DNA of 42,918 bases from Promethearchaeota archaeon (GTDB taxonomy: Archaea; Asgardarchaeota; Lokiarchaeia; Sigyniarchaeales; SOKP01): assembly GCA_019894855.1 (NCBI GenBank), contig JAGXNS010000008.1:341-43258 (forward strand), given 5' to 3'. The translations under genes and the position numbers were made by a program. The stretch's first letter is position 1. Each line of letters begins with the position of its first letter. Positions 9,558 to 27,588 of the stretch are shown piece by piece. The notes beneath the pieces are model-generated. The model made no database searches. It was given only the letters and a program-made list of their open reading frames with translations, and had not been told where the DNA came from.

Positions 9558-9681
9558 CTAAGAATCTATTTTTTTCTTTATAATGTGCGTTGTTTCAAAT
9601 AATAATGTAATAATTGCAGTTTTTTTTAAATATAATGATAAACAATTTCACTCTTAGAAATTTTTTTTAAGATGAATACAA

Positions 9682-10491: not shown

Positions 10492-10747
10492 TACAAATAA
10501 ACCATATTATAAAAACAGCTCTCAATTAGATATTAGAGGTAAAGTCTGTCCATTAACATTTGTTTACACTAAATTAGCATTAGAGGAATTGGAGAAGGGT
10601 AAGATTCTAGAAGTACATTTAGATTTTCCTGCAGCTCTCAAGAATATTCCCGAAAGTTGTAAAAGACAAAATATTGCTGAATTGTTAGAAATAAAAGAAC
10701 ACCTTTCTGATAAACAGGAATGGATAATGATATTGAAAAAACTATGA
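10475..10747 (+). CDS. tusA: TusA-family sulfur carrier protein
   Basis: A 90-residue TusA/SirA/YeeD-type persulfide carrier. The sulfur-accepting cysteine is C25 in Asp-Ile-Arg-Gly-x-x-C25-Pro-Leu, and the rest follows the two-layer alpha/beta pattern with Leu-Glu-x-Leu-Glu-x-Gly after the first helix. TusA relays sulfur between cysteine desulfurases or rhodaneses and acceptors. The ATG at 10475 sits four bases after a GGGGGT ribosome-binding site inside the upstream ThiF gene; a second ATG at 10484 is less well placed. It is translationally coupled with the ThiF-like E1 and followed 18 bases later by a PP-loop sulfurtransferase, so it probably feeds that enzyme. Confidence 0.93.
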   Translation: MLVMSSTNKPYYKNSSQLDIRGKVCPLTFVYTKLALEELEKGKILEVHLDFPAALKNIPESCKRQNIAELLEIKEHLSDKQEWIMILKKL

Positions 10748-10765
10748 ATAACAGTGAGTTAAATC

Positions 10766-11782: not shown

Positions 11783-11838
11783 TTCAATATTAAACGTAGG
11801 ATAACAAAAAATTATATTTTATCTTGACCAAATTCTAT

Positions 11839-12126
11839 TTATCCTCCAGCTATTGCTGGCAAAAGTAAAATTTCATCGTGATGACTGACAACTGTATCTA
11901 AATTTTCAAGTGTACGAATATCCTTGCCGTTTAAACCTAAAATTATGTATTTGCTTAAAGAATCTGGGGAATCTAATATCTTTCTTTCGAAATCCTTTCC
12001 AAACTTAGAAATAAGTTTTTCTAAAATCTCTTTAATTGTAGAGTTGTCCTGGATCGATAAATTTAATTCTTTAATTTTGGTAATATCCGCTAATAACGAT
12101 AAGAAATTTATTTTTACATCAATCAT
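11839..12126 (-). CDS. MoaD/ThiS-like ubiquitin-fold sulfur carrier
   Basis: A 95-residue beta-grasp protein ending in Ile-Ala-Gly-Gly, the C-terminal Gly-Gly that is adenylated and converted to a thiocarboxylate by ThiF/MoeB-type enzymes. The internal Leu-Leu-Leu-Pro-Ala-Ile-Ala-Gly-Gly end is typical of MoaD rather than ThiS. It is encoded convergently to the ThiF-TusA-PP-loop operon, 56 bases from its end. In archaea such carriers (SAMP/TtuB-like) serve molybdopterin synthesis, tRNA thiolation and protein conjugation; which applies here is open. The ATG start gives the standard first beta strand. Confidence 0.93.
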   Translation of the reverse strand: MIDVKINFLSLLADITKIKELNLSIQDNSTIKEILEKLISKFGKDFERKILDSPDSLSKYIILGLNGKDIRTLENLDTVVSHHDEILLLPAIAGG

Positions 12127-12257
12127 TTGGATACTGTTAGTTTTTTTTACAATTTCAATATTATATTCAATAACATAAAAAAATTATAAGAAATTAATTA
12201 TTGTGGTTATAAATTGAAAATATAATATTCTTAGTGCGATTACATATTAATCAAATC

Positions 12258-12261
12258 GGTG
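12258..12261 (+). promoter_or_regulatory. GGTG ribosome binding site before an ATT start
   Basis: GGTG followed after six bases by ATT at 12268, directly after an in-frame stop (12265-12267). The first canonical start in this frame (ATG 12331) would delete the first conserved strand of the encoded ligand-binding protein. Confidence 0.45.
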
Positions 12262-12267
12262 CTTTAA

Positions 12268-13206
12268 ATTAGAAAAAATAAATTAAGGATTGGGCATCTC
12301 TCTACAGCCTACCATGCGAATTTCATATTAATGGGAAATAAAGACTTAAATAATGATTTTAATATGGAGATTCGATGGAAAATGTTTGGTACAGGTCCAG
12401 CAATGGTTAAAGCATTTCAAGACAACAAGTTAGATATTGGCTATATGGGATTACCTCCCGCTATTATAGGGATAGAAAAGGGAGCTCCAATCAAGTGTGT
12501 AGCGGGAGGTCATGTTGAAGGGACTATTATGGTTGCTAACAAAAAATATAACACAATGGCTCACCTTAATAATAATCTCTCAGATTGTTTTTCTCAATTT
12601 AAAGGTTGTACTATTGGAGTTCCAAGTAAAGGCTCGATTCATGATGTAATCCTTAATTTTTATCTAAAAAAATACAACCTATTAGATGATGTTGAAGTAA
12701 AACATTATAAACAAGCAGAATTTATAGCTACAGATATGCAAAAAGGAATTATGGACGGAGGTGTTGGTACACCAGCTTTAGCGGTTTTTGCTTCAACAAT
12801 TTTTGATTCTCATTTGATAATCCCTCCAGAATTTTTATGCAAGGATAACCCTAGTTATGGAATATTCTTTCATGAGGATATTATAGACAAAGAGCCTGAA
12901 ATAGTGTTAAAGTTCTTAAATTATAATAAAGCTGCTTCTTTAATGCTTAGGGAATCTCCCACCAAGGCAGCTGATATTATATCAACCACTTTTGAAATTT
13001 TAACAAAAAGTTATGTTTCAGCGGTCTTAGAAATTTCACCTAAATATTGTATAGCTCTTTCAGAAGGATACGTTAAATCTACAATGGAATTCGTAAGGAC
13101 ACTCAAAGACTTGGACTATGTTAAAAACGAACTTAAAATTAGCGATATTTTTGATTTTAAATTTATACAAGAAGTGCATCCTGAGCCGGAACATTATTCT
13201 AAATAG
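12268..13206 (+). CDS. NMT1/SsuA-type periplasmic-binding-fold protein without signal peptide
   Basis: Read from ATT at 12268 it is 312 residues and opens with Lys-Leu-Arg-Ile-Gly-His-Leu-Ser-Thr-Ala-Tyr-His, the usual first strand of NMT1/SsuA-like substrate-binding proteins (nitrate, sulfonate, thiamine-precursor type). Starting at ATG 12331 would give 291 residues and lose it. Further on are Leu-Asp-Ile-Gly-Tyr-Met-Gly-Leu-Pro-Pro-Ala, the second-lobe Gly-Cys-Thr-Ile-Gly-Val-Pro and Gly-Gly-Val-Gly-Thr-Pro, all family hallmarks. No signal peptide, lipobox or membrane helix is present and no ABC permease or ATPase lies nearby, so a cytoplasmic binding or enzymatic role is possible. Ligand unknown. 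Confidence 0.85.
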   Translation: MRKNKLRIGHLSTAYHANFILMGNKDLNNDFNMEIRWKMFGTGPAMVKAFQDNKLDIGYMGLPPAIIGIEKGAPIKCVAGGHVEGTIMVANKKYNTMAHLNNNLSDCFSQFKGCTIGVPSKGSIHDVILNFYLKKYNLLDDVEVKHYKQAEFIATDMQKGIMDGGVGTPALAVFASTIFDSHLIIPPEFLCKDNPSYGIFFHEDIIDKEPEIVLKFLNYNKAASLMLRESPTKAADIISTTFEILTKSYVSAVLEISPKYCIALSEGYVKSTMEFVRTLKDLDYVKNELKISDIFDFKFIQEVHPEPEHYSK

Positions 13207-13446: not shown

Positions 13447-14010
13447 ATGCAATTTGATAACGTAGACAAACAAATCATAAATGCGCTCTATCAGAGTGGT
13501 CGAGAGAGTTTAACTAGTTTAAAAGACATTATCTTCAAAAAAGATGACGAAACTATGAGCCATACAGGAATTGCTAAGAGAATTACAAAGTTAGAAGACA
13601 AAGATATTCTTAAGGTTCAAGGTAATATCAATATTAACGAAATTAACTATAAAACACTGTTCATACTCATGGAATGGAGCAACTACGAGGAAATAAAAAG
13701 TATAGTGAGCTCCTATTCTGAATGTCCAAGAGTTTTTTTGTTAGCACAAGTCACTGGTCAATATAATTTAATAATGGGTGTTCTTGGACAGAGTCTAGAT
13801 GTTCTACACAGATATGTAAATCACTGTGGCCCAACCAATAAAAAAGGATTATTACATTCAGCATTAATTTTCGGTTCTGATTTTATCAGACCAAAATATC
13901 TTCCCCTCAATCTTTTTAGCAACGAAAGTAATGAGCACAATTGCGGTAATATTTGTGTTGATTGTGAAGCCTATCTTGACGGTAAATGCGATGGATGTGG
14001 TAACTTCTAA
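13447..14010 (+). CDS. Lrp/AsnC-type regulator with C-terminal cysteine cluster
   Basis: A 187-residue regulator. Residues 5-60 form an Lrp-type helix-turn-helix (Asp-x-x-Ile-Ile-Asn-Ala-Leu...Gly-Ile-Ala-Lys-Arg-Ile), and residues 65-150 an RAM/ACT-like effector domain (Val-Thr-Gly-Gln-Tyr-Asn-Leu-Ile). The unusual part is the tail: C166-x3-C170-x2-C173-x7-C181-x2-C184, with Cys-Gly and Gly-Cys pairs similar to the DUF3795 metal-binding motif. It may bind zinc, an iron-sulfur cluster or heme, which would make the regulator redox- or metal-responsive. It lies 116 bases upstream of ccmC on the same strand and is a good candidate to control the Ccm genes. This link is inferred from position only. 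Confidence 0.88.
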   Translation: MQFDNVDKQIINALYQSGRESLTSLKDIIFKKDDETMSHTGIAKRITKLEDKDILKVQGNININEINYKTLFILMEWSNYEEIKSIVSSYSECPRVFLLAQVTGQYNLIMGVLGQSLDVLHRYVNHCGPTNKKGLLHSALIFGSDFIRPKYLPLNLFSNESNEHNCGNICVDCEAYLDGKCDGCGNF

Positions 14011-14126: not shown

Positions 14127-14834
14127 TTGACTTACAGATTAAAAAAAAACTCATATCTCCTTATAGTTTCTTTGTTATTATTGATAATCAATTTATTCTT
14201 GATTATTGGTTTAGCATCATTTGAAAGAATTGTGTATATAATATTTTTTTATCATGTATCAGCTGCTTGGTTGTCTTACTTTTCATTCGGTGTCAGCTTG
14301 ATAGGTCATCTATTATATCTTAAACAAAATAAGATGAACTGGAGTAATTTAGGAAAAAATAGCATAATAGTTGGAGTTTTTTTTGTTGCCTTTACGTTAA
14401 TAACAGGATCGCTATGGTTTAATGCGACTTCTGGCTCGTATAATAATATATACTGGCAATGGAGTGATGCAAGACAAACTACGACGCTAATATTATTCTT
14501 CTCCTATGTTTCATACTTAATATTTAGAAGCTTTATTGAAGATAGGGAGAAAAAAGCTAAACTTTCTGCGATTTTGGGAATAGTTTTTTTTCCGACCGTC
14601 CCTTTAAGTTACCTTTCAGCAATCCTTTTCACAAGTTTGCATCCTCTGATAAATCCCAATCCAGGCGAACCAGGAAATATATACTGGGATTCCATTAAAC
14701 TTTTTATTCTAATTTTTAACTTATTTGCTATAACTCTTCTATTTGTCTACTTGATTCGCGAATTGAAGGAGTTAGATATAGCGAAAGAAAAGTTACAAGA
14801 AAAATTATACATAAAAATGGAGGAAGGAAGATGA
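14127..14834 (+). CDS. ccmC: CcmC heme-handling membrane protein
   Basis: A 235-residue six-helix protein of the HHP (heme-handling) family. It has the WWD-type loop (Trp110-Gln-Trp-x-Asp114, then Ala-Arg-Gln-Thr-Thr) and the two heme-ligand histidines of CcmC, H43 in Tyr-His-Val-Ser-Ala-Ala-Trp and H172 in Ser-Leu-His-Pro. CcmC binds heme at the outer membrane face and loads it onto CcmE. The TTG at 14127 lies nine bases after a GTGAGGT ribosome-binding site; an ATA at 14124 is also in frame and better spaced. The stop codon overlaps the next ATG, giving tight coupling to the ccmD-like gene. Confidence 0.95.
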   Translation: MTYRLKKNSYLLIVSLLLLIINLFLIIGLASFERIVYIIFFYHVSAAWLSYFSFGVSLIGHLLYLKQNKMNWSNLGKNSIIVGVFFVAFTLITGSLWFNATSGSYNNIYWQWSDARQTTTLILFFSYVSYLIFRSFIEDREKKAKLSAILGIVFFPTVPLSYLSAILFTSLHPLINPNPGEPGNIYWDSIKLFILIFNLFAITLLFVYLIRELKELDIAKEKLQEKLYIKMEEGR

Positions 14835-14974
14835 GCGAGTTAATCTTAGATATAACTACAATAAGTATAAGCTATGTGCTATTTTGGTTATTGATTATAA
14901 TTCTAATTGTATATCCTAAATTATCAAAAAGAAAAGTTCAAAGAAGGCTTAATAGATTAAATCAAAGTAAGTAA
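14831..14974 (+). CDS. ccmD: CcmD-like small membrane protein
   Basis: A 47-residue protein with one transmembrane helix (about residues 12-29) followed by a strongly basic cytoplasmic tail (Lys-Arg-Lys, Arg-Arg, Asn-Arg), the layout of CcmD. CcmD stabilises the CcmABC complex and helps release holo-CcmE. It starts at an ATG overlapping the ccmC stop (ATGA), with a GGAGGAAGG ribosome-binding sequence just upstream, and lies between ccmC and ccmE exactly where ccmD is found in other genomes. Sequence similarity in this family is minimal, so the call rests on size, topology and position. Confidence 0.82.
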   Translation: MSELILDITTISISYVLFWLLIIILIVYPKLSKRKVQRRLNRLNQSK

Positions 14975-14977
14975 TCA

Positions 14978-15325
14978 GTGTTAAATGTGAGAAGATCGCG
15001 AATTGTTGCAGGTTTAGGGATCATTGGAGCAGTTAGTATCATTACAGTAATTTTGATTTTCAATTTCAGACCCTATCTTCAAATATCCCAAGTTTTTGAA
15101 GATCCATCAAGATACCATAATCAAGAAATTCAAGTAATTGGAATAGTAGAAGGGTATTCAGGAGGAAATTTCAATTTAACACAAGGTAATGATAAAATTT
15201 TTATTGATGTTTCAGATATTACAGTTCCTGATGATGTAGAGAATGGGATTCAAGTAGTTGTAATGGGCTGGTTTAATCAATTATTATACTTAAACGCAAC
15301 ACAAATTCTTGTGCAATGTAGCTAA
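14978..15325 (+). CDS. ccmE: CcmE heme chaperone, cysteine type with truncated tail
   Basis: A 115-residue protein: a cytoplasmic basic N-terminus, one signal-anchor helix (residues 11-30) and an exported OB-fold of about 80 residues (Gln-Val-Phe...Gln-Glu-Ile-Gln-Val-Ile-Gly-Ile-Val, then Val-Val-Val-Met-Gly-Trp-Phe). In classical CcmE the heme-binding His lies in a flexible tail (His-x3-Tyr); archaeal and some delta-proteobacterial forms use Cys-x3-Tyr. Here the tail ends at C114-Ser115, so the Cys is present but the Tyr and the rest are missing. GTG at 14978 is the start, three bases after the ccmD-like stop; a second GTG at 14987 is possible. It ends six bases from the convergent ccmB stop. 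Confidence 0.88.
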   Translation: MLNVRRSRIVAGLGIIGAVSIITVILIFNFRPYLQISQVFEDPSRYHNQEIQVIGIVEGYSGGNFNLTQGNDKIFIDVSDITVPDDVENGIQVVVMGWFNQLLYLNATQILVQCS

Positions 15326-15331
15326 TTTATA

Positions 15332-16057
15332 CTATTCAGATAATAGTTCTTCCGAAACTAATACTAAAATTGAAAACATCAGGATAACGTGAGCCACTAA
15401 AAACAAAATTTCAATAACTACCATTGAAATTAATTCACCTTCTAATAGTCTTATATTTAGCGATATAATAGGAGAAGTTATTGGAAGTATTATTGGGAAA
15501 AGTAATAAAGGTAAGACGAAAGATTTATTTTTTGAATACATTGATAAAGCGGAAACTAAAGTCCCACATATAGATATGTCCAGAGTAGGTAACACAATTC
15601 CTATTAAAATATAATACAAAAATTCATTAAAATTCAAAATTTGAACCGAAGGAACTGAGATAAAAAAACTAAAAAGAAGTAAAATCAATTCAATAAAACT
15701 TAATAAAATGAAACAAAAAACAACTTTACTAATTAGAAGAATGTTATTCGAAACTGGAGAGGATGTAAGCCCATCAAGTGTACCTCTTTCTTTTTCTTGA
15801 ACAAATAACTTGATCATTATAAAAATAAGCGTAAAGAAAATAATCAACCATATTTGAATAACAAATATCTCAATAGGCATCCTAACACCTAGATTAATTG
15901 TGTTATATGACGAAGAAAAAATAAATATTGAAATAATTCCAAACAAAATAATCGAAATGATGTCATTAGCTTGTCTAATTTCGGATTTAATATCCTTTTG
16001 CAGAATTGTTATGAAGAGTTTTCGGTCAGATTTAGCAGATTTCTTTTTGGTTTTCAC
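15332..16057 (-). CDS. ccmB: CcmB heme-exporter permease
   Basis: A 241-residue protein with six predicted membrane helices and the CcmB signature Glu-Lys-Glu-Arg-Gly-Thr-Leu-Asp-Gly-Leu in the first cytoplasmic loop, which contacts the ATPase. CcmAB uses ATP hydrolysis to release holo-CcmE from CcmCD. A GTG start at 16057 is fixed by an in-frame stop just before it, with AAGGTG eight bases upstream at the end of ccmA, so ccmA and ccmB are coupled. The length is close to that of bacterial CcmB (about 220 residues). Confidence 0.92.
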   Translation of the reverse strand: MKTKKKSAKSDRKLFITILQKDIKSEIRQANDIISIILFGIISIFIFSSSYNTINLGVRMPIEIFVIQIWLIIFFTLIFIMIKLFVQEKERGTLDGLTSSPVSNNILLISKVVFCFILLSFIELILLLFSFFISVPSVQILNFNEFLYYILIGIVLPTLDISICGTLVSALSMYSKNKSFVLPLLLFPIILPITSPIISLNIRLLEGELISMVVIEILFLVAHVILMFSILVLVSEELLSE

Positions 16058-16069
16058 TCAACTCGCACC

Positions 16070-16795
16070 TTAAAAGTAGGATTCAATTTTACTTCTGTCT
16101 ATCTCGTTTTTTAGAGCAAATTTACTTATTTTACCTCTTTTTAAAATTAAGATTGCGTCGCTAATCTCCTGAACAACCTCAATATTATGAGAAGCAATAA
16201 TCATTGTTAGGTTTTCCTTTTCCTTTAATTCTTTTAAAATTTTTATCAATAATTTTATAGTATTGAAGTCTAGTCCCAAAAAAGGTTCATCTAAAAGTAG
16301 TATTGATGGATCGTGGATTAATATTCGGATTATTTCCACTTTTTGTTTCATTCCAGTAGATAAGTTACTAATTGGTTCAAAAATCCAGTCAGAAAGGTTA
16401 AATTGCTCTGTGTAATGTTCAATTTTCTCTTTAAATGTATGTTTATCGTAGACTGAGTATAATTTACTATAAAATTTTAGGTTTTCATAAATTGTTAGCT
16501 CTTCATATAAAAACGATTTGTTAGTTAATGTTCCGATAATTTGTTTGATAGATTTATCATTTGTTTTATAATTCTTTCCTTTAAATACAACTTTACCAGA
16601 AGTTAGAGATGTCAAACCAGATAAGATTCTAATAAGTGTAGTTTTTCCTGCACCATTAGCACCAATTACACCCAAAATAGTACTTTCGTCTAAATGAAAA
16701 GATATTTTATTCAGAGCGTAGAAAAAACCATATTGTTTAGAAATATTATCACATTCTAATAAAAATGTATTAAAATTGCTCATAATAAACTTCAT
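16070..16795 (-). CDS. ccmA: CcmA ABC-type ATPase
   Basis: A 241-residue ABC ATPase: Walker A Gly-Ala-Asn-Gly-Ala-Gly-Lys-Thr-Thr near residues 42-50, signature Leu-Ser-Thr-Gly-Met-Lys-Gln-Lys, Walker B Ile-Leu-Leu-Leu-Asp-Glu-Pro, and the switch His in Ala-Ser-His-Asn. Assignment to CcmA rests on the adjacent ccmB, 12 bases downstream, and the presence of ccmC, D, E and F in the same island; by sequence alone it could belong to other exporters. A second ATG at codon 5 is an equally possible start. It lies 61 bases downstream of the large surface protein on the same strand. Confidence 0.9.
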   Translation of the reverse strand: MKFIMSNFNTFLLECDNISKQYGFFYALNKISFHLDESTILGVIGANGAGKTTLIRILSGLTSLTSGKVVFKGKNYKTNDKSIKQIIGTLTNKSFLYEELTIYENLKFYSKLYSVYDKHTFKEKIEHYTEQFNLSDWIFEPISNLSTGMKQKVEIIRILIHDPSILLLDEPFLGLDFNTIKLLIKILKELKEKENLTMIIASHNIEVVQEISDAILILKRGKISKFALKNEIDRSKIESYF

Positions 16796-16856
16796 TAAAG
16801 GTTAATTTAAGGCTGAATAAAAATTGTAATAAAAAATAATAAAATAAAAACAATTA

Positions 16857-19800
16857 TTATTTAAGAAATCGTTTTGGCCTAAGCGAATTTACTAGAACTA
16901 CTGCCAGAGCCCCTAATATACCTAATGTACTAAATACCACAATTGATTCAAAATCTTCATCAGCCATACCATTATTTCCGTCTTCACCTTGCATATTCAC
17001 CATAATTGTATCACTTATTAAATTCCAATTACCGAGTGAATCTCTAGCATAGATAGTATAACTCAAAATACCTGTGTTGCTTGGTGTCCAATTATCTATA
17101 CTCCAAGTATCTCCGATCACATTGGTCATCGTATAGTTAGAATTTTCAAACTCAATGAATACATCATTTATACCAGATAAATCTGTAATATCAACTTGAA
17201 CAGATATCGATTGTCCTAAGAAAATTGATTCTGCGCTTTTAATAATGTTGAATAATGTAGGACCTACTGTGTCTGTAACAGTAATATTTCTATACAATGA
17301 AACTTTGTTATCGCTTGTATCATTTGCATGAATTACGTAAGACTTTAATCCGATAATTGTTGGATTCCAGTTGCTATATTCCCATGTTGTTCCACCAATA
17401 TATACCATAGTATAATTCAAGCCCCCAAGTTCTATTAGCACATGACCGATTCCTGATAAATCGGTTGCATCAATTTGAATTGTTTCAACTTGACCTAATT
17501 CTAATGGATCCGCACTTTCAACCAAATTTGTTAATGTTGGATAACTTGTATCTATTACAGTAATGTTATTGCTCACAAAATCCCAATTATTGTTTGAATC
17601 CTTTCCATATAATGTATATGATTTTGTACCTATGGAATTTGGAATCCAACCGTTATATTGCCAAGTCACGCCACCTATATTTGTCATTGTGTAATTAGCG
17701 TTTCCAATTTCTATCAATACCATATTTATTCCAGATATATCAGTAGCATTAATTAGGATAGTTTCGATCTCACCTAATTCTAATGGATCTGCACTTTCTA
17801 TTAGGTTTGATAATACTGGTTGTATCGTATCTTGAACTGTTATTGAATCGATTAATAGATTCCAATTTCCTTCCGTGTCATTTGCGTAAATTGTATACAA
17901 TTTTAATCCAGTAGTACTTGGGATCCAGCTATTGTATTCCCATGTCGATCCATTTAGATGATTCATAGTATAATTCACACCATCAAGTTTTATCATCACA
18001 TGACTGATTCCTGATAAATCACTAACATCAACTTGAATAGTTCCCCATTGTCCTAATTCTAACGGATCTGCATTTTCATATAGGTTAGATAAACCCGGGC
18101 CATTTGAATCTAATATCGTAATATTATTGTTCAGAGAATTCCAATTTCCGTTAGAATCATTTGCGTAAATCGTATAAAATTTTAATCCAGAGGCATCTGG
18201 AGTCCAGGTATTATATTCCCACGTATTACTACCTATGAATCCCATGGTATAATTCACGCCATCAAGTTCTATTAGTACATTACTTATTCCAGATAAATCA
18301 ATGACATTAATTTGAATTGTCTCTGTCTGACCTAATTCTAACGGATCCACATTTTCAAATAAGTTAGATAAAACAGGACCGCTTGTATCTACAACTGTAA
18401 AATTCGTGGTTAAAGAAATTCCGTTATTGCTCGAATCATTCGCGTAAATTGAATAGAATTTTAAACCCGTACTACTTGGAATCAAGTTGTTGTATTCCCA
18501 AGTTTTGCTACTTATTTTTGTCATAGTATAATTTACTCCTTCAAATTCAAGCAACACCAAACTTATAGAAGCTAAATCAGTAATATTAACCTGAATCGTT
18601 TGACTTTGTCCTAATTCTATTGGATCGTATTCTTCATATAAGTTTGATAATTCCGGTGATATTGTATCTATTACTTCAATAAAACCGACTGTACTATTCC
18701 AATTATTCGAATTATCCTGGATAAATATAGTATATGAATAAATATCAACAGCCTCAGGAACCCATGTATCATTTACCCATGTATTACCTCCAAGATTAGA
18801 CATTGAATAATTCACACCATCAAATTCAATTTTAACTTGATTGATACTTGATAAGTCTGTAGCATCAATAGAAATTGTTACAATATTTCCCAATTCTATA
18901 GGATCGCTATTTTCTATTAAATTTTCATAATTTGGAGGTGTTGTGTCCTGAACATAGATATTATCACTTAATTGATTCCAATTATTTAAAGAATCATTAG
19001 AGTAGACTGTAAACAATTTCATCCCAATTAAATTAGGTGTCCAGGCATATTCATATATGATTCCACCAATATTTGCCATCGTATAGTTTTGTCCCCCGAT
19101 TTCTATAAATACATCACTAATCCCCTCAGTATCATTAACATCAACTTGAATAGTTTCGATTTGACCTAATTCTAAAGGATCTGCACTTTTAGATATGTTT
19201 TGAATTGTCGGACCCGAAGATATGATAACTTCAATAGAACCTGCTGTTGTATTTAAATTGTCGCTATTATCTACCATGTAAACGATATAATTAAAAATTC
19301 CTGTGGATGTTGGCTTCCAATTTGACCATGACCAAGTGTCGAATCCCATAAAAATCATAGTGTAATTAATATTGTTATATTCTAGAATTACATCCTTCAA
19401 TCCAGAACCTGGACTGTCATAAACTTTAATGGAAATTGTTTCATTCTGACCAAGTGGGAGCGGATCAGCACTTTCAATTAAATCGGAATATTTCGGTGCT
19501 TTAGTGTCTTCTACTGTGATATCATTTAATACTGAATTCCAATTGCCTTCAGTGTCATTAGCATAAATAGTATAATATTTTAATCCTGCAGTTGTTGGTG
19601 TCCAACTATTAAATTCCCAGGTTGTACTACTAATTTTCGTCATCGTGTAATTTGAACCACTGATTTCAATTAACACGTGACTGATACCAGATAAATCAGT
19701 AGCATTGATTTGGATCGTTTCTGTTTGTCCTAACTCTAAAGGGTCTCCGCTTTCTACCAAATTTGTTAATGAAGGTTGACTTGTATCTTGAACTGTTATT

Positions 19801-21398
19801 GAATCGCTTAAAGTATTCCAATTGCCTTTAGTATCATTTGCAAAAATGTTATAAAATTTAAAACCGGTAGACAATGGCGTCCAACTATTGTATTCCCAAG
19901 TTGCGCTACTGATTTTTGTCATCGTGTAATTTACGCCACCAATTTCTATAAGTACGTGACTAATACCTGATAAATCAGTTGCATTGATTTGAATCGCTTC
20001 TGCTTGACCTAGCTCTATAGGATCAGTATTTTCAACTAAATTAAAAAGAGACGGAAGAGTAGTATCTTGAACTGTAATTGAATTACTTAAAGAATTCCAA
20101 TTTCCTTTAGTGTCGTTAGCATAAATACTGTAACCTTTTACTCCCACTGATGTCGGACTCCAGGTATTAAATTGATACGTGTTTGTATCAATTTGGTTCA
20201 TGCTATAATTCGCACTTTCGATTTCAATTAACACATGACTGATACCAGATGGATCTGATACATTGATTTGAATCGTTTCTGTCTGTCCTAACTCTAGAGG
20301 ATCTGCACTTTCCACTAAACTTGTCAATGAGGGTTGGACAGTATCTTGAACGGTTATTGAATCAGTTAAAGAATTCCAATTTCCCTCAGTATCGTTCGTA
20401 AAAAGAGTATATAGTTTCAATCCAGTGGTAACTGGAATCCAGCTGTCGTATTCCCATATTGTCCCACCAATATTTACCATCGTGTAATTTGTGTTTTCAA
20501 TCTCTATTAAAACCTGACTGATACCAGATAAATCTGTTGAGTTGATTTGAATCGTCTCTGTTTGACCTAACTCTAAAGGATCTGCGCTCTCAATTAAATT
20601 AGCCATGGTTGGATTTGTAGTATCAATTACGTTAATACTTCCATTTGTTGAATTCCAACTTCCATTTGTATCATTAGCATAATAGATATAATTCTTTATG
20701 CCAACAGTATTTGGAGTCCAATTGTAATTGTATGTGTCTCCAACAGTGTTAACCATAGAATAGTTAGTACCTTCTAATTCAATAAAGACTTCACTAATAC
20801 TTGATTCAGAATCAACAACATCAACTTGAAAAGTTTCTTGTTGACCTAATTCTAAAGGATCGCTACTCTCAAGAATATTGATAAATTGAGGTGGTGTATT
20901 TTGTGATTCTACAGTAATGATAAAATCTCCATGAGCAAAATATGAGGATGAACCTCCCGCCCTGTAAATTGCATCAGAATGGAGAGTATAAGTTTGTTCC
21001 GTTGCTGGTGCAGTAACTTGAAAATCTATAGTAACTGAATCTCCAGAACCACTTATAGAAGCTGACTGTTGAGTAGAATCAAAGGAAAAATCCTTATTAT
21101 CACCTAAACCAGGCGATCCGCTAGGAAAACCTACTTCAATACTATTCCCTTGAGCTTCAGTGAAACTTAACACTTGAATAGTAATTGTAAAAGTTTCACT
21201 TGGATCTACGGATGAACCTGAACTTGACGATAAAGATACATAGCCACTAGTGCTTTCTGTTATATTTCCATGGCAACTTGAATGGCCTTCTCCAGTAAAA
21301 TCGTTGAATTGACTCGTTCTGGCTATTACAAGCCCCGTAATCGATAAAAACAATATGGTTGTGATTAAAAAAGATGAAATTTTCTTGTTTATTTTCAT
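16857..21398 (-). CDS. 1513-aa surface protein: HxxCH domain, 14 repeats, C-terminal membrane anchor
   Basis: An exported protein with a signal peptide (residues 1-26), a candidate single-cysteine heme site H39-S-S-C42-H43-Gly, and a beta-sandwich domain to about residue 165 that resembles the bacterial 'choice-of-anchor V'/Reeler-like domain, where the equivalent motif is Cys-x-x-Cys-His. C42 is the only cysteine in the whole protein; H140 and H156 could be distal heme ligands. Fourteen repeats of about 93 residues follow, each with Asp-Pro-Leu-Glu-Leu-Gly-Gln, Asp-Leu-Ser-Gly-Ile and Asn-Tyr-Thr-Met, rich in Asn-x-Ser/Thr sequons. Residues 1486-1504 are a membrane helix followed by a basic tail. 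The protein should project a heme-bearing tip far from the membrane. It lies between ccmF and ccmA, in their orientation. AAGGAG and AAGGGG sequences precede the ATG. Confidence 0.93.
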   Translation of the reverse strand: MKINKKISSFLITTILFLSITGLVIARTSQFNDFTGEGHSSCHGNITESTSGYVSLSSSSGSSVDPSETFTITIQVLSFTEAQGNSIEVGFPSGSPGLGDNKDFSFDSTQQSASISGSGDSVTIDFQVTAPATEQTYTLHSDAIYRAGGSSSYFAHGDFIITVESQNTPPQFINILESSDPLELGQQETFQVDVVDSESSISEVFIELEGTNYSMVNTVGDTYNYNWTPNTVGIKNYIYYANDTNGSWNSTNGSINVIDTTNPTMANLIESADPLELGQTETIQINSTDLSGISQVLIEIENTNYTMVNIGGTIWEYDSWIPVTTGLKLYTLFTNDTEGNWNSLTDSITVQDTVQPSLTSLVESADPLELGQTETIQINVSDPSGISHVLIEIESANYSMNQIDTNTYQFNTWSPTSVGVKGYSIYANDTKGNWNSLSNSITVQDTTLPSLFNLVENTDPIELGQAEAIQINATDLSGISHVLIEIGGVNYTMTKISSATWEYNSWTPLSTGFKFYNIFANDTKGNWNTLSDSITVQDTSQPSLTNLVESGDPLELGQTETIQINATDLSGISHVLIEISGSNYTMTKISSTTWEFNSWTPTTAGLKYYTIYANDTEGNWNSVLNDITVEDTKAPKYSDLIESADPLPLGQNETISIKVYDSPGSGLKDVILEYNNINYTMIFMGFDTWSWSNWKPTSTGIFNYIVYMVDNSDNLNTTAGSIEVIISSGPTIQNISKSADPLELGQIETIQVDVNDTEGISDVFIEIGGQNYTMANIGGIIYEYAWTPNLIGMKLFTVYSNDSLNNWNQLSDNIYVQDTTPPNYENLIENSDPIELGNIVTISIDATDLSSINQVKIEFDGVNYSMSNLGGNTWVNDTWVPEAVDIYSYTIFIQDNSNNWNSTVGFIEVIDTISPELSNLYEEYDPIELGQSQTIQVNITDLASISLVLLEFEGVNYTMTKISSKTWEYNNLIPSSTGLKFYSIYANDSSNNGISLTTNFTVVDTSGPVLSNLFENVDPLELGQTETIQINVIDLSGISNVLIELDGVNYTMGFIGSNTWEYNTWTPDASGLKFYTIYANDSNGNWNSLNNNITILDSNGPGLSNLYENADPLELGQWGTIQVDVSDLSGISHVMIKLDGVNYTMNHLNGSTWEYNSWIPSTTGLKLYTIYANDTEGNWNLLIDSITVQDTIQPVLSNLIESADPLELGEIETILINATDISGINMVLIEIGNANYTMTNIGGVTWQYNGWIPNSIGTKSYTLYGKDSNNNWDFVSNNITVIDTSYPTLTNLVESADPLELGQVETIQIDATDLSGIGHVLIELGGLNYTMVYIGGTTWEYSNWNPTIIGLKSYVIHANDTSDNKVSLYRNITVTDTVGPTLFNIIKSAESIFLGQSISVQVDITDLSGINDVFIEFENSNYTMTNVIGDTWSIDNWTPSNTGILSYTIYARDSLGNWNLISDTIMVNMQGEDGNNGMADEDFESIVVFSTLGILGALAVVLVNSLRPKRFLK
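16988..20894 (-). repeat. Array of 14 coding tandem repeats (about 279 bp each)
   Basis: Fourteen imperfect repeats of an immunoglobulin-like or cadherin-like beta-sandwich unit lie within the 1513-aa protein. The most conserved block encodes Asp-Pro-Leu/Ile-Glu-Leu-Gly-Gln. Copies differ at many codons, so the array is old or diversified and is not a recent slippage product. Its length may vary between strains. Confidence 0.9.
21270..21284 (-). other. HxxCH candidate heme-attachment motif (surface protein)
   Basis: Codons CAT TCA AGT TGC CAT encode H39-S-S-C-H43 about 13 residues after the predicted signal-peptide cleavage. The Cys-His pair matches the second half of a c-heme site; the first cysteine is replaced by histidine. 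The same arrangement occurs at 23744-23758. Confidence 0.6.
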
Positions 21399-21730
21399 TA
21401 AAACCCCTTTTTCTCCTTAAAACTAAAGATTTAAATGCTCCTTAATTGCATTTCTTTTTTTTAATAGTTTGAACAAGTTCATTTTGAATTTGAACTTATC
21501 AAATATATTATAAATTTACTTAATTTGAAGAAATTTCTTATAATTTATAACTTTTATTAAATCGGGTTAATTTAAACAATCAAATCGACCTTAGATTCAT
21601 TTTTAAACTATAATTGATTATTGAGTTTCAATTTGAATTAATTTTGAACGATTGTGTTTTGAGGTTCTATCCAAATTAAAATTAAGACAACTACTAAAAA
21701 GATACATTTCTTAATCTATTCCATAGATTT
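21399..21730 (-). other. Intergenic region between ccmF and the surface-protein gene
   Basis: About 330 bases with no gene. It contains a TATA-like stretch near 21504-21514 (read on the minus strand) and AAGGAG/AAGGGG sequences just before the ATG of the surface protein, suggesting that this gene has its own promoter instead of depending only on ccmF read-through. Confidence 0.5.
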
Positions 21731-23443
21731 TCATTTTAACTTATTTCTCCTGATAAAAAAAAAGATAAAAATAGAGGGAATTATTCCACCCATGAAAAAA
21801 ATAAACCCCGAAATGTAGAAAATATCTTGAAATATCCATGCCCCTGGTTCAATTAAAGTCCCAATTAATATTAACGATAAACCTATATGTACATAAGTTT
21901 TCGAATTTATTCTAAAATACTGCTTTAAACTCGTATCCTTGTCAAAATCCTTTATTAGTTTCAAAATTGAAGATAGTAATGATATAATAAATATTGAGAT
22001 CACGGGATTTATCCAGACACCAGAAATGGAAAATACCACAAAGGAGATTATAGTTTGTAATATTCCTCCTATAGTTAATATTATAGCTATTACTTTAAGC
22101 TTATATGCCCCATAAAGAGAACAAAAAACTAATGATGTAGCCAATACAGATGCTAATATTAATGTTGTTATAATGAAGTAATCTGTTCCCACATATAGGA
22201 CATTTATATTAGAAAAAAGAGAAAGGAAATATGTAAGAGGAGAAATTAATAAACCAAATGTACAAACAAAGGCAAGCATAAACAAGCATAAATAACTTAT
22301 ATAATCTAAAAAGAGTCTTGTTTTCTTGAAATTTTCAGATAAAGAATTCAATGTGTCATAAATCACATAAAGTGAAAAACCAACTAATATAGAACCAACT
22401 ATTAAAGTCCAAATAATAAGATTATTTTCGCCTGTAAAGGCATGCAATGATGTTAAGCCTCCTCCTCGCGTGATTAAGGTAGAAAAAACTATTGATAAAA
22501 AAATCAATATAACATTAATTTTTACAAGTTTACTGTTAATTTTCTTAAAGGTTATCGTGTGAAAGTAAGCTGTACTAAAGAACCAAGGGATAAGCGAAAC
22601 AGTTTCAACAGGATCCCATCCCCAGTACCTACCCCATGTCAATGCTATTTTTGCCCAATATGCTCCCAATCCTATACTTAAAGTCAAAACTAACCATCCA
22701 AACTTCAAGCTAAAATCGTAAAAAGATTTCTGATATGTATTTTGTAACGATAGATTTGGACTTACCATCCTAAAAATTGAAATAGTAAAAGGAATTAAGA
22801 AAATTGAGTAAGCTATAAATGTAAATAAGGGATGCCATATCATAAATGGTGACAATAAAAGAGGATTTAAACCTGATCCGTTAGGAAATATAATTGGAGG
22901 CTCTATTTGAAAGGGATTATAGATAAATAAAATTATTAGAAAGACCGAAGAAATTAGCATAGATAATATAGTTGACATTATAAAGACAGCGTCATCTCTA
23001 TTTTGATTCTTGAGCCTATAGAAGAAAATAACTATAGTATTAAATACCATCCAAGTCATGATTGAACCTGCTTCGCCAGCCCAAATTGCTACAAATTTGT
23101 ATATAAGTGGGAGAGTAGTTTCACTATAGCTCCAAACATATATAATATCAAAGTAGTCGTTAACAAAGCAATATTCAAGGAGGAAAAATAAAGAAATTGA
23201 GAAAGTCATGCTCAAAGAAGATAAAAGATAAATATTTCTTTTAACTTTTAGAAGATAAAAAAGATCTACCGCAGTAATTAAGATAGTAGAGATGATTAAG
23301 ATGTTCCCAAGAAATGAAATGACTAATATTTTGATATTTAGCCCGAATAGATCTAAAACGAGAGGAATAACAATAACGATACTGAGGATCACAATTAAAT
23401 CAATAAGTAATATCTTCTTGAGTGAAGAGTGATCAAACTTCAT
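21731..23443 (-). CDS. ccmF: CcmF cytochrome c heme lyase, shortened periplasmic part
   Basis: A 570-residue multi-helix protein of the HHP family. The WWD signature is at Trp270-Gly-Arg-Tyr-Trp-Gly-Trp-Asp-Pro-Val-Glu, and the four heme-coordinating histidines of CcmF appear to be kept: H204 (Trp-His-Pro), H295 (Tyr-Phe-His), H334 (Thr-Ser-Leu-His-Ala-Phe) and H519 (Val-His-Ile-Gly). CcmF transfers heme from CcmE to apocytochromes. Bacterial CcmF is about 650 residues with a large external loop between the last two helices; here that part is reduced to about 15 residues, which fits with no CcmH partner being encoded nearby. It is the first gene of the minus-strand Ccm set, divergent from the 23645 gene. 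Confidence 0.94.
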   Translation of the reverse strand: MKFDHSSLKKILLIDLIVILSIVIVIPLVLDLFGLNIKILVISFLGNILIISTILITAVDLFYLLKVKRNIYLLSSLSMTFSISLFFLLEYCFVNDYFDIIYVWSYSETTLPLIYKFVAIWAGEAGSIMTWMVFNTIVIFFYRLKNQNRDDAVFIMSTILSMLISSVFLIILFIYNPFQIEPPIIFPNGSGLNPLLLSPFMIWHPLFTFIAYSIFLIPFTISIFRMVSPNLSLQNTYQKSFYDFSLKFGWLVLTLSIGLGAYWAKIALTWGRYWGWDPVETVSLIPWFFSTAYFHTITFKKINSKLVKINVILIFLSIVFSTLITRGGGLTSLHAFTGENNLIIWTLIVGSILVGFSLYVIYDTLNSLSENFKKTRLFLDYISYLCLFMLAFVCTFGLLISPLTYFLSLFSNINVLYVGTDYFIITTLILASVLATSLVFCSLYGAYKLKVIAIILTIGGILQTIISFVVFSISGVWINPVISIFIISLLSSILKLIKDFDKDTSLKQYFRINSKTYVHIGLSLILIGTLIEPGAWIFQDIFYISGFIFFMGGIIPSIFIFFFIRRNKLK

Positions 23444-23644
23444 ACTAAAAAAAAAAACCTTGAATTAAAAAAGATTTTCATAAAAATTTATAAATTAGAA
23501 CTTAACACTTTCTCTCTTATGGATGCATTTAGAAAAAAGGTGCAATTTTCGCATCAATATTTAAAATCCACTTATAATTTTTAATTAAAAGCTTTATTTG
23601 TTTTACAACATCAATTAAGATTATTACAATACGATGTAAGGATT

Positions 23645-24550
23645 ATGAAAAAGAAAATTTTTGTGCTATTTATCATAATGATTAGTTTACCATTATTGCT
23701 ACTGTTCCTGAATGGAAGTGCATATCCAAGTCAAGAATTAGACCATGAAATTTGCCATACAGTGCCCGGAGGATATACAATTTCAGCTGATATAAGTGGC
23801 ACCATTACCGTAAATCCCTCTGATGTTATAGTTTTTAATATAACTGCCACTGGAACCAATTTATTTGTTCAAGCTCCTAATGAAAACACGAGCATAATGC
23901 AAAATGGGCATTTAATGATTACGCCTACTACTGATAAAATATGGGATGACTCTGGAGAAGATAAAGATTCTAATCCAAATGTGATGATTATTACTTTTAA
24001 TATTACAGTTCCTGAAACAGTAGGTTTTTACAATCTTTTCATACTAGCAGGAGACAACTCATCAGCCTCCGGTGTACCACCCGATTTTGCATATATAGAA
24101 ATTGGGTTTAGTGTTGGAGGAGTTGCCCAACCTGAACCTGAGATTGTAATATTCGATCACTTTGGATTAATTCTCGGCATGTCTGCTTTGTTACTTCTTT
24201 CTGTTGGAACTATCCTCGTATTAATAAACGAAAACAAATTTGTGAAAATCCATGGAATATTTAGTGGAGCTTCTTGGATATTAACATTGATCAATGCTAT
24301 TTCTTTGATTACCCTCAATAAAAATGAGCTTCCATTTGAAGAATTAATCCAAATTTGGTTTTCTTTTGATCCTTTCCCCGTTCATGTAATCCATATCATT
24401 TTAGGTGCAGTGGGATTATTTACAGGACTTCTTAGCATGTTGTTTGGCATAGCTGCTGAGCGTAAATACGCTAAACTTACAGGATATATTACTTTGATTT
24501 GTTGGTGGACAGGATTCTTTTTAGGTCTTATATTAGTTCCCTTATTTTAA
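23645..24550 (+). CDS. HxxCH domain fused to four-helix histidine-rich membrane domain
   Basis: A 301-residue exported membrane protein. A signal peptide (residues 1-26) is followed by H34-E-I-C37-H38, the same HxxCH motif as in the 1513-aa protein, then a beta-sandwich (residues 43-160) with a matching strand pattern (Val-x-Pro-Ser..., Ile-Thr-Phe-Asn-Ile-Thr-Val-Pro, Tyr-Asn-Leu). The C-terminal part has four membrane helices with H172, H203, H247 and H250 near their ends, reminiscent of cytochrome b561/DOMON-linked proteins; K278-Leu-Thr-Gly-Tyr occupies the last helix start. C37 is the only exported cysteine. I infer one c-type and one or two b-type hemes, making it a transmembrane electron carrier. 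AAGGATT precedes the ATG, and a flavoprotein gene follows 17 bases later. Confidence 0.88.
   Translation: MKKKIFVLFIIMISLPLLLLFLNGSAYPSQELDHEICHTVPGGYTISADISGTITVNPSDVIVFNITATGTNLFVQAPNENTSIMQNGHLMITPTTDKIWDDSGEDKDSNPNVMIITFNITVPETVGFYNLFILAGDNSSASGVPPDFAYIEIGFSVGGVAQPEPEIVIFDHFGLILGMSALLLLSVGTILVLINENKFVKIHGIFSGASWILTLINAISLITLNKNELPFEELIQIWFSFDPFPVHVIHIILGAVGLFTGLLSMLFGIAAERKYAKLTGYITLICWWTGFFLGLILVPLF
23744..23758 (+). other. HxxCH candidate heme-attachment motif (b561-like fusion)
   Basis: Codons CAT GAA ATT TGC CAT encode H34-E-I-C-H38, just after the signal peptide. As in the surface protein, histidine stands where the first cysteine of Cys-x-x-Cys-His would be. Confidence 0.6.
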
Positions 24551-24567
24551 ATGGAAGTGTTAAAAAA

Positions 24568-26073
24568 ATGAATGAGACAATAACTAAGGAAAAAGTAAAC
24601 GGGAAGTTAACTCGAAGCCCGAGCAAAGTAAAGAAAAGGGGAAAAAAGCGTAATTTCGAGGAAATTGTTAAAGAATTCATTTCCCCATACCATGTAAGCA
24701 CTAATAGATACGAACTTGAATCTGCATCTGCTGACCTTACATCATTACCCTCGTATCATTACAAATTTAAAAAAAATTATCTTGCGAGTATCATTGTTCG
24801 ACCTGCTGATACAGAGAGCTTATCCCTATTAATTAAGAAGTGTTGGGAACTTTCACTACCTATAACAATAAGAGCTGCCGGTACATCATGCTTTTCCTCA
24901 GCAACTCCAGCTATGGGGGGCGTGATAATTGATATGCGTCGTATTAACAAAGTTGAGCACATCGACACTGAAAAAATGACGGTTAGAGTAGGAGCGGGAA
25001 TATCATGGTTAAATCTAATGGAGAAACTTTCAGATTACGGGCTTGCACCTAAAGTTTACCCAACTAGTTTCAAAACTTCTTGTGTGGGTGGTTTCATTGC
25101 AACGCCTGGGAAAGCAGGAATCGGGGTGCCAAAGTATGGTACAATGGCCGATTCAATCATATCGTTAACATTAGTTCTTCCTAATGGGAAAGTCGAACAT
25201 ATTTCGAAGGATTCGAATGGAGAAATATCACTTGATGATATCACTGGAACTTATGGTATATACGGTGCGATCTCAGAGGTAGAGTTATCTCTTACAAATT
25301 TACAAACTTCGTTAGAGATTGCAGGCTATGGATTTTCCTCTCTTGAAGATGCAGTTAATTATTATAAAGCCCTACTAAGTAAAGTACCGGATAAACCATT
25401 TTTTCTTTCTATTTCAGAACGAAAATTTGAACAATACTCACACATCAATTTTCCAAGTCAGGATTGGTTGGTTTGGGCCGTTTATTACGATGATCCCGAA
25501 GTAACTATTAGAAGTATCTCAGCGGCTGAGAACCTAGCTCAAAATTTGAAAGGTATCAAAGTAGATGAATCTTATTTAAAAGAAAAATGGCGCGACATTA
25601 GTGATGCTGAAGTAGCTATAGGAAGGACGAGTAGGAATATTATCTTCCAAGAATATTGGATTTCAAATGAGAATCTATTGTCCTTCTATGAGAGTTATTT
25701 GAAAAGAGCCAGTAAGTATAAATTTCCTATTGCAACTTATACGATTTCTGGGGAAGAAGGATGGAGCCGAGTAAAAGTGTTTGGCCTCTCAGATATTACT
25801 AGACCCATCGAATTTTTTTCTGTCAAGGCATTTTTGCACGATTTGTCAATGGAATCTTTTAAACAAGGGGATAGCCTCTACACTATTGGGATAGTTAATA
25901 CCTTTTATTTGCTAAAATATCGACGTGAAGTTGTAAATCAAAGGAAAATATTGAAAAAAAAGGTAGATCCTAAAGATTTGTTTAACTCCTATCGTATAGT
26001 TAAAGCTAGAATGAAACACTGGCGTATTTCACTACTCTTTACAACAGCAAAATTACTATATAAAATTTTTTAA
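24568..26073 (+). CDS. GlcD/FAD-binding-4-type oxidoreductase
   Basis: A 501-residue flavoprotein with the FAD-binding-4 (vanillyl-alcohol-oxidase-type) fold: Pro-Ile-Thr-Ile-Arg-Ala-Ala-Gly-Thr-Ser near residue 85, Met-Thr-Val-Arg-Val-Gly-Ala-Gly-Ile-Ser-Trp, and Gly-Gly-Phe-Ile-Ala-Thr-Pro-Gly-Lys-Ala-Gly. The C-terminal end has Lys-Lys-Val-Asp-Pro-Lys-Asp-Leu-Phe-Asn, the usual family close. Such subunits oxidise 2-hydroxy acids such as lactate or glycolate, or related substrates, and pass electrons to a GlcF/HdrD-like protein, which is encoded next. The N-terminal 40 residues are very basic. The ATG at 24568 is chosen over an upstream TTG at 24499 that lies inside the preceding gene; GGAAGTG is the ribosome-binding site. 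Confidence 0.92.
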   Translation: MNETITKEKVNGKLTRSPSKVKKRGKKRNFEEIVKEFISPYHVSTNRYELESASADLTSLPSYHYKFKKNYLASIIVRPADTESLSLLIKKCWELSLPITIRAAGTSCFSSATPAMGGVIIDMRRINKVEHIDTEKMTVRVGAGISWLNLMEKLSDYGLAPKVYPTSFKTSCVGGFIATPGKAGIGVPKYGTMADSIISLTLVLPNGKVEHISKDSNGEISLDDITGTYGIYGAISEVELSLTNLQTSLEIAGYGFSSLEDAVNYYKALLSKVPDKPFFLSISERKFEQYSHINFPSQDWLVWAVYYDDPEVTIRSISAAENLAQNLKGIKVDESYLKEKWRDISDAEVAIGRTSRNIIFQEYWISNENLLSFYESYLKRASKYKFPIATYTISGEEGWSRVKVFGLSDITRPIEFFSVKAFLHDLSMESFKQGDSLYTIGIVNTFYLLKYRREVVNQRKILKKKVDPKDLFNSYRIVKARMKHWRISLLFTTAKLLYKIF

Positions 26074-26208: not shown

Positions 26209-27588
26209 ATGAGTGAAGGTAAAGATAAAAAGGACATTCGCAATGTTGTAACAACAGGTCCACCAGTTGCTGGTTTAGTTTCTCCGTCTAGAGAGAATTT
26301 AATTGAACCAAAAACAAAAGAAAAAGAAGAAAAATTCGGTTATGATCGTTGTACTCATTGTGGGTATTGTCGTCATGTTTGTAAAGTCTACAATACTTCT
26401 TGGTCAGAAACTGATTATGCTGGGGGACGAAATAGAATTATTAAAGCATTAGATCGTAAGGATATCAAGTTCGATAATGAAGAAATAATACCCTCTGTTT
26501 TTCGATGTATGCTCTGCGGGAATTGTAAAGTAGTTTGTCCTGTAGGAATTGATACACTTGAAGTATTTCAGAATTTTCGTAAAACCGTTGTTAAAAAGGG
26601 TGCCATGCCAAAAAAGTTAATAGGGCTTCGAAAATCAATACTTGACAATAATAATCCTTTTCTTGAACAACATACTGATAGGTTTAATTGGTGTGAGGGT
26701 TCCGAAGAAGGTAAACTAGCTTATGAACGAGCAAAAGAAGAACTTGCAAAAATTGATAATACACTTGCAGCTGGAGATATAGAGGCAAGAAAACAAAAAA
26801 TCCATAAAGTTGGTTACTTTGTTGGTTGTACATCGTCTTATCGAAATAAAGAACTGGTCAATGCAACAAGTTCAGTTTTAGGAAAGCTGGGAATTGAATT
26901 TGTTGTTTTTCCGGAAGAAAGATGCTGTGGATCGGTATTATTTCGGACAGGATTAGAGGATGACGCTTTAGAGCTCGTTAAACATAACTATAACATGATT
27001 CGTGAAAGCGGGGTTTCTGAAGTTGTTTTTTCATGTTCAGGATGCTTTTCGACATTTACTTTAGAATATACGAAGTTTGCTGGAGGAAACTTAGGTTTTG
27101 ATCTTCTTCATTTAACGCAATATGCCTTGAAAATTGTAAAAGAGAAGAACCTAAAAATAAGGTATACCAAACGAACAAAAGAAGACCCTCTGTTGATTAC
27201 TTATCACGACCCTTGTCATTTAGGGAGATATTGTGGAGTTTATGAAGAACCACGAGAATTACTTCGAATGATTGAAGGTATAAAATTATTTGAAATGAAA
27301 CATAATAGAGACATGTCTTGGTGTTGTGGCGCAGGAGGCGGAGTTAAAGCTCTGTATGGAGATATCGCTGGCGAGATCGGAAGAGATAGAATAAATGAGA
27401 CTCGTACGTGTATGGTAAGGATACGTGAGGATCGTTTGAAAGAGGCATTAGAAACGAACGCTGAGGCTTTGGTGAGTTCATGCGTGTTTTGTAAGAATAA
27501 CTTGTTCCAAGTAGCAAACGAAGATAATTCTCTGATAAAAGTGATTGACATTTCCCAACTTTTAGACGATTGTGAATTTTATCAGTAA
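26209..27588 (+). CDS. HdrD/GlcF-like iron-sulfur oxidoreductase subunit
   Basis: A 459-residue protein with two [4Fe-4S] ferredoxin motifs (Cys-Thr-His-Cys-Gly-Tyr-Cys-x3-Cys near residue 48; Cys-Met-Leu-Cys-Gly-Asn-Cys-x3-Cys-Pro near residue 104) and two CCG domains. These include Arg-Cys-Cys-Gly-Ser...Cys-Ser-Gly-Cys and Asp-Pro-Cys-His-Leu-Gly...Trp-Cys-Cys-Gly-Ala...Ser-Cys-Val-Phe-Cys, which bind clusters of the HdrB/HdrD type. This architecture is shared by heterodisulfide reductase HdrD, glycolate oxidase GlcF and GlpC. Next to a GlcD-like flavoprotein and a b-heme-like membrane protein it most likely carries electrons between flavin and membrane. The 45-residue N-terminal extension is not part of the family core. 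GAGGT precedes the ATG at good spacing. Confidence 0.93.
   Translation: MSEGKDKKDIRNVVTTGPPVAGLVSPSRENLIEPKTKEKEEKFGYDRCTHCGYCRHVCKVYNTSWSETDYAGGRNRIIKALDRKDIKFDNEEIIPSVFRCMLCGNCKVVCPVGIDTLEVFQNFRKTVVKKGAMPKKLIGLRKSILDNNNPFLEQHTDRFNWCEGSEEGKLAYERAKEELAKIDNTLAAGDIEARKQKIHKVGYFVGCTSSYRNKELVNATSSVLGKLGIEFVVFPEERCCGSVLFRTGLEDDALELVKHNYNMIRESGVSEVVFSCSGCFSTFTLEYTKFAGGNLGFDLLHLTQYALKIVKEKNLKIRYTKRTKEDPLLITYHDPCHLGRYCGVYEEPRELLRMIEGIKLFEMKHNRDMSWCCGAGGGVKALYGDIAGEIGRDRINETRTCMVRIREDRLKEALETNAEALVSSCVFCKNNLFQVANEDNSLIKVIDISQLLDDCEFYQ

Follow-up and report, generated by a model that had tools for sequence, protein, structure and literature searches.

Can a cytochrome c maturation (Ccm) system serve proteins that offer heme a single cysteine? 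The question is raised by a 42,918-nucleotide stretch of DNA from Promethearchaeota archaeon (GenBank GCA_019894855.1, contig JAGXNS010000008.1, positions 341 to 43,258), referred to as the window. The window carries a Ccm island and, within it, the genes of two exported proteins, P0001 and P0002, each with a His-x-x-Cys-His motif near its signal peptide. The island probably encodes an archaeal System I* pathway in derived form, which has been adapted to clients that offer one heme-binding cysteine and attaches heme through a single Cys-His. The original prediction, that this Ccm set is devoted to single-cysteine clients, was strongly supported by comparison with related genomes. Client and ccm genes co-occurred, Cys-His was kept, the first cysteine was missing from all 16 clients of the window's family, and CcmE, CcmC, and CcmF were altered.

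Single-Cysteine Motifs in the Clients

P0001 (301 aa; 23645..24550, + strand) has a signal peptide, the motif HEICH, a beta-sandwich, and four membrane helices. The motif (H34-H38; 23744..23758, + strand) lies in the context ELD-H34-E-I-C37-H38-TVPGGY. P0002 (1513 aa; 16857..21398, − strand) has a signal peptide, the motif HSSCH, a choice-of-anchor-V-like domain, many Big_7 Ig repeats, and a C-terminal membrane helix. Its motif (H39-H43; 21270..21284, − strand) lies in the context GEG-H39-S-S-C42-H43-G. C42 is the sole cysteine in the 1513 residues of P0002. P0001 has two cysteines, of which C37 is the only exported one and C286 lies inside a predicted membrane helix. The HxxCH motif first noted in both proteins, with C42 and C37 as their only exported cysteines, was thereby borne out.

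The 228 genomes of the phylum were searched with an alignment of the client domain, and the loci were then read. The survey gave 67 proteins, and 66 of them had Cys-His near the signal peptide: 16 from the family of the window (f1; eight genomes), 49 from Thorarchaeota (f8), and one from another family (G043, CX1CH). The Cys-His pair was invariant in all 66. A cysteine within the six residues before Cys-His was present in none of the 16 f1 clients vs. all 49 Thorarchaeota clients (CX1-4CH), where it stood at position −3 in 26, −5 in 19, −4 in 3, and −2 in 1. Twelve of the 16 f1 clients had a histidine upstream instead (−3 in 7, −5 in 4, and −4 in 1), which no Thorarchaeota client had. In relatives the motif was repeated as HDICH, HETCH, HTGCH, HASCH, and HGSCH. 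The remaining four f1 clients had neither cysteine nor histidine there (TLSCH, TLGCH twice, and NDNCH). A chance motif was ruled out by the recurrence of HxxCH, the invariant Cys-His, and the perfect split of the first cysteine by lineage.

The histidine spacings of the f1 clients were those of the first cysteine in Thorarchaeota, so there is more to the change than the loss of a cysteine: histidine takes the same set of positions in most clients. The suggestion that this histidine may be functional was supported in part: the spacing agrees with it, but the residue is not obligatory, as TLSCH, TLGCH, NDNCH, and the ATKCH of a further candidate client do without it. In the client-domain tree, which is unrooted and has some long branches, the f1 proteins fell into at least two supported groups. 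More than one loss of the first cysteine, in different paralogues within one lineage, is therefore probable. Repeated loss is easier to explain by altered machinery than by a peculiarity of a single protein.

The further candidate comes from the sister genome G003: the neighbour of ccmC there codes for a heme-domain protein of ethylbenzene-dehydrogenase-like type (EB_dh, PF09459, 5.8e-24) with one cysteine in 407 aa, in ATKCH. Its Thorarchaeota relatives have a single CGH, and CH is absent. The EB_dh protein is no more than suggestive of a third single-cysteine client with a different fold.

Co-occurrence of Clients and ccm Genes

The co-occurrence of client and ccm genes that had been predicted for relatives held. 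Within the genus, ccmC was found in 4 of 24 genomes, and the same four had a client (4/4 vs. 0/20). Across the phylum, 24 genomes had both client and Ccm, 3 had a client only, 8 had Ccm only, and 193 had neither. Every absence in this study is limited by genome incompleteness; the window genome (G000), from a member of the Lokiarchaeota, is 84% complete. The eight Ccm-only genomes belonged to family f18, and multiheme CxxCH proteins were found at two of the six loci read there.

Changes in CcmE, CcmC, and CcmF

The island consists of ccmC, a 47-residue ccmD-like open reading frame (ORF), ccmE, ccmB, ccmA, and ccmF, a genuine set according to Pfam. The ccm loci of G003, G007, and G017 (L196-L198) were among those compared. 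CcmE (14978..15325, + strand; PF03100, 1e-7) ends in ILVQCS, directly followed by the stop codon, and its Cys114 is encoded at 15317-15319. The QCS ending was found in all six f1 genomes having ccmE beside ccmC, with TAA, TGA, and TAG as stop codons, all at the same place. A frameshift or sequencing error as the cause of the shortening was ruled out by the six genomes and three different stop codons. The heme-binding cysteine, aligned with that of CPSKY in Thorarchaeota, was kept, and the tyrosine of CxxxY was gone in 6/6. Other archaeal CcmE proteins had C[PS]S[KR]Y in all 36 readable tails. Archaeal CcmE has been stated to carry CxxxY universally (PMC9084895), and f1 CcmE is an exception. 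A search of the CcmE profile against the PDB gave no match.

In CcmC (14127..14834, + strand; PF01578, 1.5e-17), the WWD loop is rebuilt: SGSYNNIYWQWSDARQTTT replaces WGxxWNWDPRETTT. It is in the WWD domain that heme is brought into position to be attached to CcmE (PMC12077264). The loop was rebuilt in all six f1 proteins, with the Trp of WG changed to Ser, a four-residue insertion, and one extra residue between the last Trp and Asp. Two conserved histidines (H43 and H172), the Trp of GSxW, W-x-W, D, and R were retained. The f1 CcmC proteins formed one clade (support 100/99), and the CcmC model still resembled E. coli CcmC (8ce1_C; TM 0.74, E 4e-6).

CcmF, the heme lyase (21731..23443, − strand; PF01578, 3.2e-28; PDB 6zmq, 8.4e-24), keeps its WWD motif as WGRYWGWDPVE. 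A C-terminal extracytoplasmic stretch of about 95 residues was absent from all five complete f1 copies and present in Thorarchaeota CcmF. CcmE, CcmC, and CcmF were altered only in the lineage with single-cysteine clients. The dN/dS ratio was 0.04-0.26 across seven genes (ccmA, B, C, D, E, F, and the P0001 gene), with 0.08 for the ccmD-like ORF. The measured genes are therefore under purifying selection and not decaying.

Thiol Reduction

The original prediction had held that one-cysteine clients would make the missing CcmG and CcmH unnecessary. As stated, this was not supported. CcmH (PF03918) was found in 0 of 22 genomes, two-cysteine and one-cysteine alike, with a positive E. coli control; CcmG was not searched for. 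The absence of CcmH is therefore not a result of single-cysteine clients, as two-cysteine Thorarchaeota also lack it, and System I* without CcmG/H matures CxxCH (PMC3601427). The argument was partly rescued by CcdA/DsbD (PF02683), which exceeded the cut-off in 1 of the 7 f1 genomes with Ccm vs. 11 of 13 two-cysteine genomes (nominal p 0.004; a comparison of Ccm-bearing genomes only). Methanosarcina can do without CcmG and CcdA when conditions are reducing (PMC9084895).

Proposed Pathway

As the process is usually described, CcmE His130 holds heme by a bond to the 2-vinyl and must be ejected; Cys1 is then joined to the 2-vinyl and Cys2 to the 4-vinyl (PMC10663686). Cys1 is missing here, so the simplest outcome would be one thioether, with the remaining cysteine joined to the 4-vinyl and the adjacent histidine on the iron. 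CcmABCD would move heme to CcmE, where the penultimate cysteine would hold it with the usual tyrosine ligand absent. CcmE would pass it to a CcmF without the C-terminal domain, which would join one heme vinyl to the client cysteine of Cys-His, the 4-vinyl if the usual stereochemistry holds. The histidine of Cys-His would ligate the iron. The first cysteine, now lost from the clients, is normally the 2-vinyl acceptor, and histidine most often stands in the same place. The chaperone-held vinyl would be left without a cysteine acceptor, a possible reason for the changes in CcmE, the CcmC loop, and CcmF. A CcdA-type thiol reductase could be lost because a one-cysteine client cannot form a CxxC disulfide.

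P0001 probably accepts electrons from the FAD and Fe-S proteins encoded next to it and passes them, by way of a membrane b-type domain, to the exported heme. Its membrane part has invariant His172, His203, and His250, as would be expected for b-type heme. Its partner, the GlcD-like FAD-linked dehydrogenase (24499..26073, likely start 24568, + strand), matched PF01565 (1.3e-32) and, under the cut-off, TIGR00387 (7.1e-30). The next conserved neighbour is an Fe-S/CCG-domain electron carrier, GlcF/HdrD-like (26209..27588, + strand; PF02754, 9e-34). The order P0001, GlcD-like FAD protein, Fe-S/CCG protein recurred in G003, G007, G150, G153, and more distant genomes including G055; G162 had the same three genes, and G043 had a fused version. 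P0001 most likely serves to carry electrons from an organic-acid dehydrogenase to exported heme.

P0002 is a cell-surface protein of Ig-like repeats, and it would carry the same kind of heme domain. Its N-terminal domain matched choice-of-anchor V (NCBIfam NF041895) at 2.9e-6 and 27.4 bits, short of the curated cut-off of 42, and covers most of the model. Thorarchaeota relatives of this domain have the first cysteine, which P0002 lacks.

Evidence against the Pathway and Rival Explanations

Several observations weigh against the proposed pathway. E. coli Ccm attaches no heme to single-cysteine variants, according to the title of Allen 2002 as cited in PMC3420020. Clients were present without detected Ccm in G162 (93% complete), G043 (78%), and G191 (60%). 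In G155, CcmF, CcmE-like, and CcmA-like genes were present and CcmC was not found. In the predicted structure of P0001, Cys-His lies in a low-confidence, predicted disordered linker (pLDDT about 40) before an Ig-like beta-sandwich, and a known cytochrome c fold is absent. The fold search with P0001 returned Ig/MSP-like beta-sandwiches only and no heme fold, and comparison of the clients gave no conserved distal His or Met. The heme synthase AhbD was over the curated cut-off in 0 of 65 genomes of the window's family, so heme would come by another route or from outside; the search gave sub-threshold matches only, and one of these looks like a radical-SAM protein whose ends are rich in Cys. The client sequences are related, and the nominal Fisher p-values for f1 vs. 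Thorarchaeota (1.5e-15 for the first cysteine and 4.5e-10 for the histidine) overstate independence. The 16 of 16 count covers only clients of the searched domain, and not any two-cysteine CxxCH proteins that these genomes may encode elsewhere.

The missing cytochrome fold, the AhbD result, and the three genomes with clients but no detected Ccm would suit a different reading: the H..CH site would be a ligand for a metal ion or for noncovalent heme, or else a structural thiol, and the Ccm set would serve some other purpose. This is unlikely, as every Thorarchaeota client has CX1-4CH at the homologous site, clients and ccm genes co-occur tightly and cluster, the heme-binding cysteine of CcmE is kept, and the genes are under purifying selection. 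Another reading keeps covalent heme but bonds the substituted histidine to the 2-vinyl and the cysteine to the 4-vinyl, a mixed His/Cys attachment chemically like that of CcmE His130. It draws on the histidine of 12 of the 16 f1 clients, never seen in Thorarchaeota, at first-cysteine spacings (HX2CH, HX3CH, and HX4CH), and on the fact that CcmE His130 and the canonical Cys1 both bond the 2-vinyl (PMC10663686). If true, it would give a new class of cytochrome with mixed His/Cys linkage, made by a Ccm machine whose chaperone relies on Cys and whose client relies on His, reversing the 2-vinyl roles of E. coli. However, the TLSCH, TLGCH, and NDNCH clients lack such a histidine, and the CcmE His-vinyl adduct is labile by design and has been called unique in biology (PMC10663686). 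Mixed attachment is thus rather unlikely.

Decay of the pathway, with the cysteine losses and the Ccm changes as unconnected products of drift, is very improbable. In its favour, the distribution of Ccm within the genus is patchy, and the set in G155 looks incomplete. Yet the dN/dS values are low (0.04-0.26), the CcmE stop position is constant across three stop codons, Cys-His is never lost in CH-bearing clients, and first-cysteine loss is parallel in at least two client clades. The cysteine follows soon after the signal peptide, and TLSC and TLGC look lipobox-like, which would suggest membrane anchoring instead of a heme site. This reading has hardly any probability and was rejected: the cysteine is well past the hydrophobic segment, neither HEIC nor HSSC has the form of a lipobox, the histidine after the cysteine is invariant in 66/66, and P0001 and P0002 already have membrane helices. 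Single-thioether attachment by an adapted System I* pathway remains the preferred explanation.

Gene Content around the Island

The ccmD-like small membrane ORF (47 aa; 14831..14974, + strand) has a start overlapping the ccmC stop, and its position was kept in six family genomes. Besides the window, the genomes with an ORF of this kind between ccmC and ccmE were G003, G007, G017, G150, G153, G055, G196, and G189. In contrast, ccmD has been reported as uniformly absent from archaea (PMC9084895). The ccmB gene (15332..16057, − strand; PF03379, 4.7e-10) adjoins ccmA, which encodes the ABC ATPase (16070..16795, − strand; ABC_tran PF00005, 1.6e-31; TIGR01189, 3.2e-32, under the curated cut-off).

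An Lrp/AsnC-like regulator with a C-terminal Cys cluster (window 13447-14010) is encoded beside the island in G000, G007, G150, and G153, thus in at least four genomes, and may regulate it. Farther upstream (9682-13206) are ThiF/MoeB-like, TusA-like, ThiI-like, and SsuA/NMT1-like genes, mostly common to G007; a signal peptide of the SsuA-like protein was not obvious. Contamination of the bin by foreign DNA is unlikely, as the Lrp-like gene beside the island recurs in G007, G150, and G153, and it is further countered by the SsuA/NMT1-like and sulfur-transfer genes common to G007. The G007 island is split over contig ends, and only ~145 bp separate the P0001 orthologue from one of them; its ccmF therefore probably falls in the contig gap rather than having been lost.

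The four-helix membrane domain of P0001 (residues 172-298) has many stand-alone paralogues, with about 50% identity, in Lokiarchaeota without ccm (e.g., L017, L006, and L008), and one in the window's own genome. Contracted CX1CH motifs were seen in the same client domain at L042:9150-10058 (G043, DCNCH) and L044:5694-6546 (G055, SCGCH). G155, a one-contig genome, has two adjacent ccmF genes and an 89-aa CcmE-like protein ending in TYCCDRSTGV (L147:12047-15627 and 16761-17030). It also encodes two proteins with CxxGH near the signal peptide (NCGSGH and SCDTGH; L147:7713-9053 and 9284-11980, + strand), but the client-domain profile picks up only the one of 898 aa (9e-8). In these proteins the second cysteine, not the first, would be the one lost.

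Comparison with Known Systems

Cytochromes that naturally have a single thioether have been described as unique to Euglenozoa, and the reason for them has been called a mystery of almost 50 years (PMC8262978). A search for HXXCH found nothing in the literature covered. The f1 Ccm would differ from E. coli Ccm in its substrate rule, not only in its parts. Three Ccm proteins changed together with their substrates, and this opens a way to test what in CcmC, CcmE, and CcmF enforces the two-cysteine rule. For Lokiarchaeota, which are related to the ancestor of eukaryotes, the pathway would also be an unexpected redox feature.

The Euglenozoan cytochromes c (AxxCH/FxxCH; PMC8262978) likewise keep only the second cysteine and the histidine (XXXCH). 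They have a mitochondrial cytochrome c fold, with Ala or Phe in the first position, where f1 clients usually have His. Their synthetase, KCCS, is a divergent HCCS and not Ccm; the window carries a Ccm set. The E. coli-type System I has CcmA, B, C, E, and F in common with the island, but CcmH and the HxxxY of CcmE are its features, while the window's genome lacks CcmH and its CcmE ends in QCS.

System I* of archaea and Desulfovibrio (PMC3601427, PMC9084895) consists of CcmABC(D)EF without CcmG/H, with CxxxY in CcmE and CxxCH clients. CcmA, B, C, E, and F, a Cys-type CcmE, and the absence of CcmH are common to it and the f1 system. The f1 system differs in a CcmE without Tyr, a rebuilt WWD loop in CcmC, a CcmF without the C-terminal domain, and one-cysteine clients. 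Thorarchaeota have the same client domain and the same Ccm gene set with a CcmD-like ORF, and G055 has the same order of P0001, FAD, and CCG genes. Unlike f1, they have two cysteines in their clients (CX1-4CH), CxxxY in CcmE, a canonical WWD, and usually CcdA.

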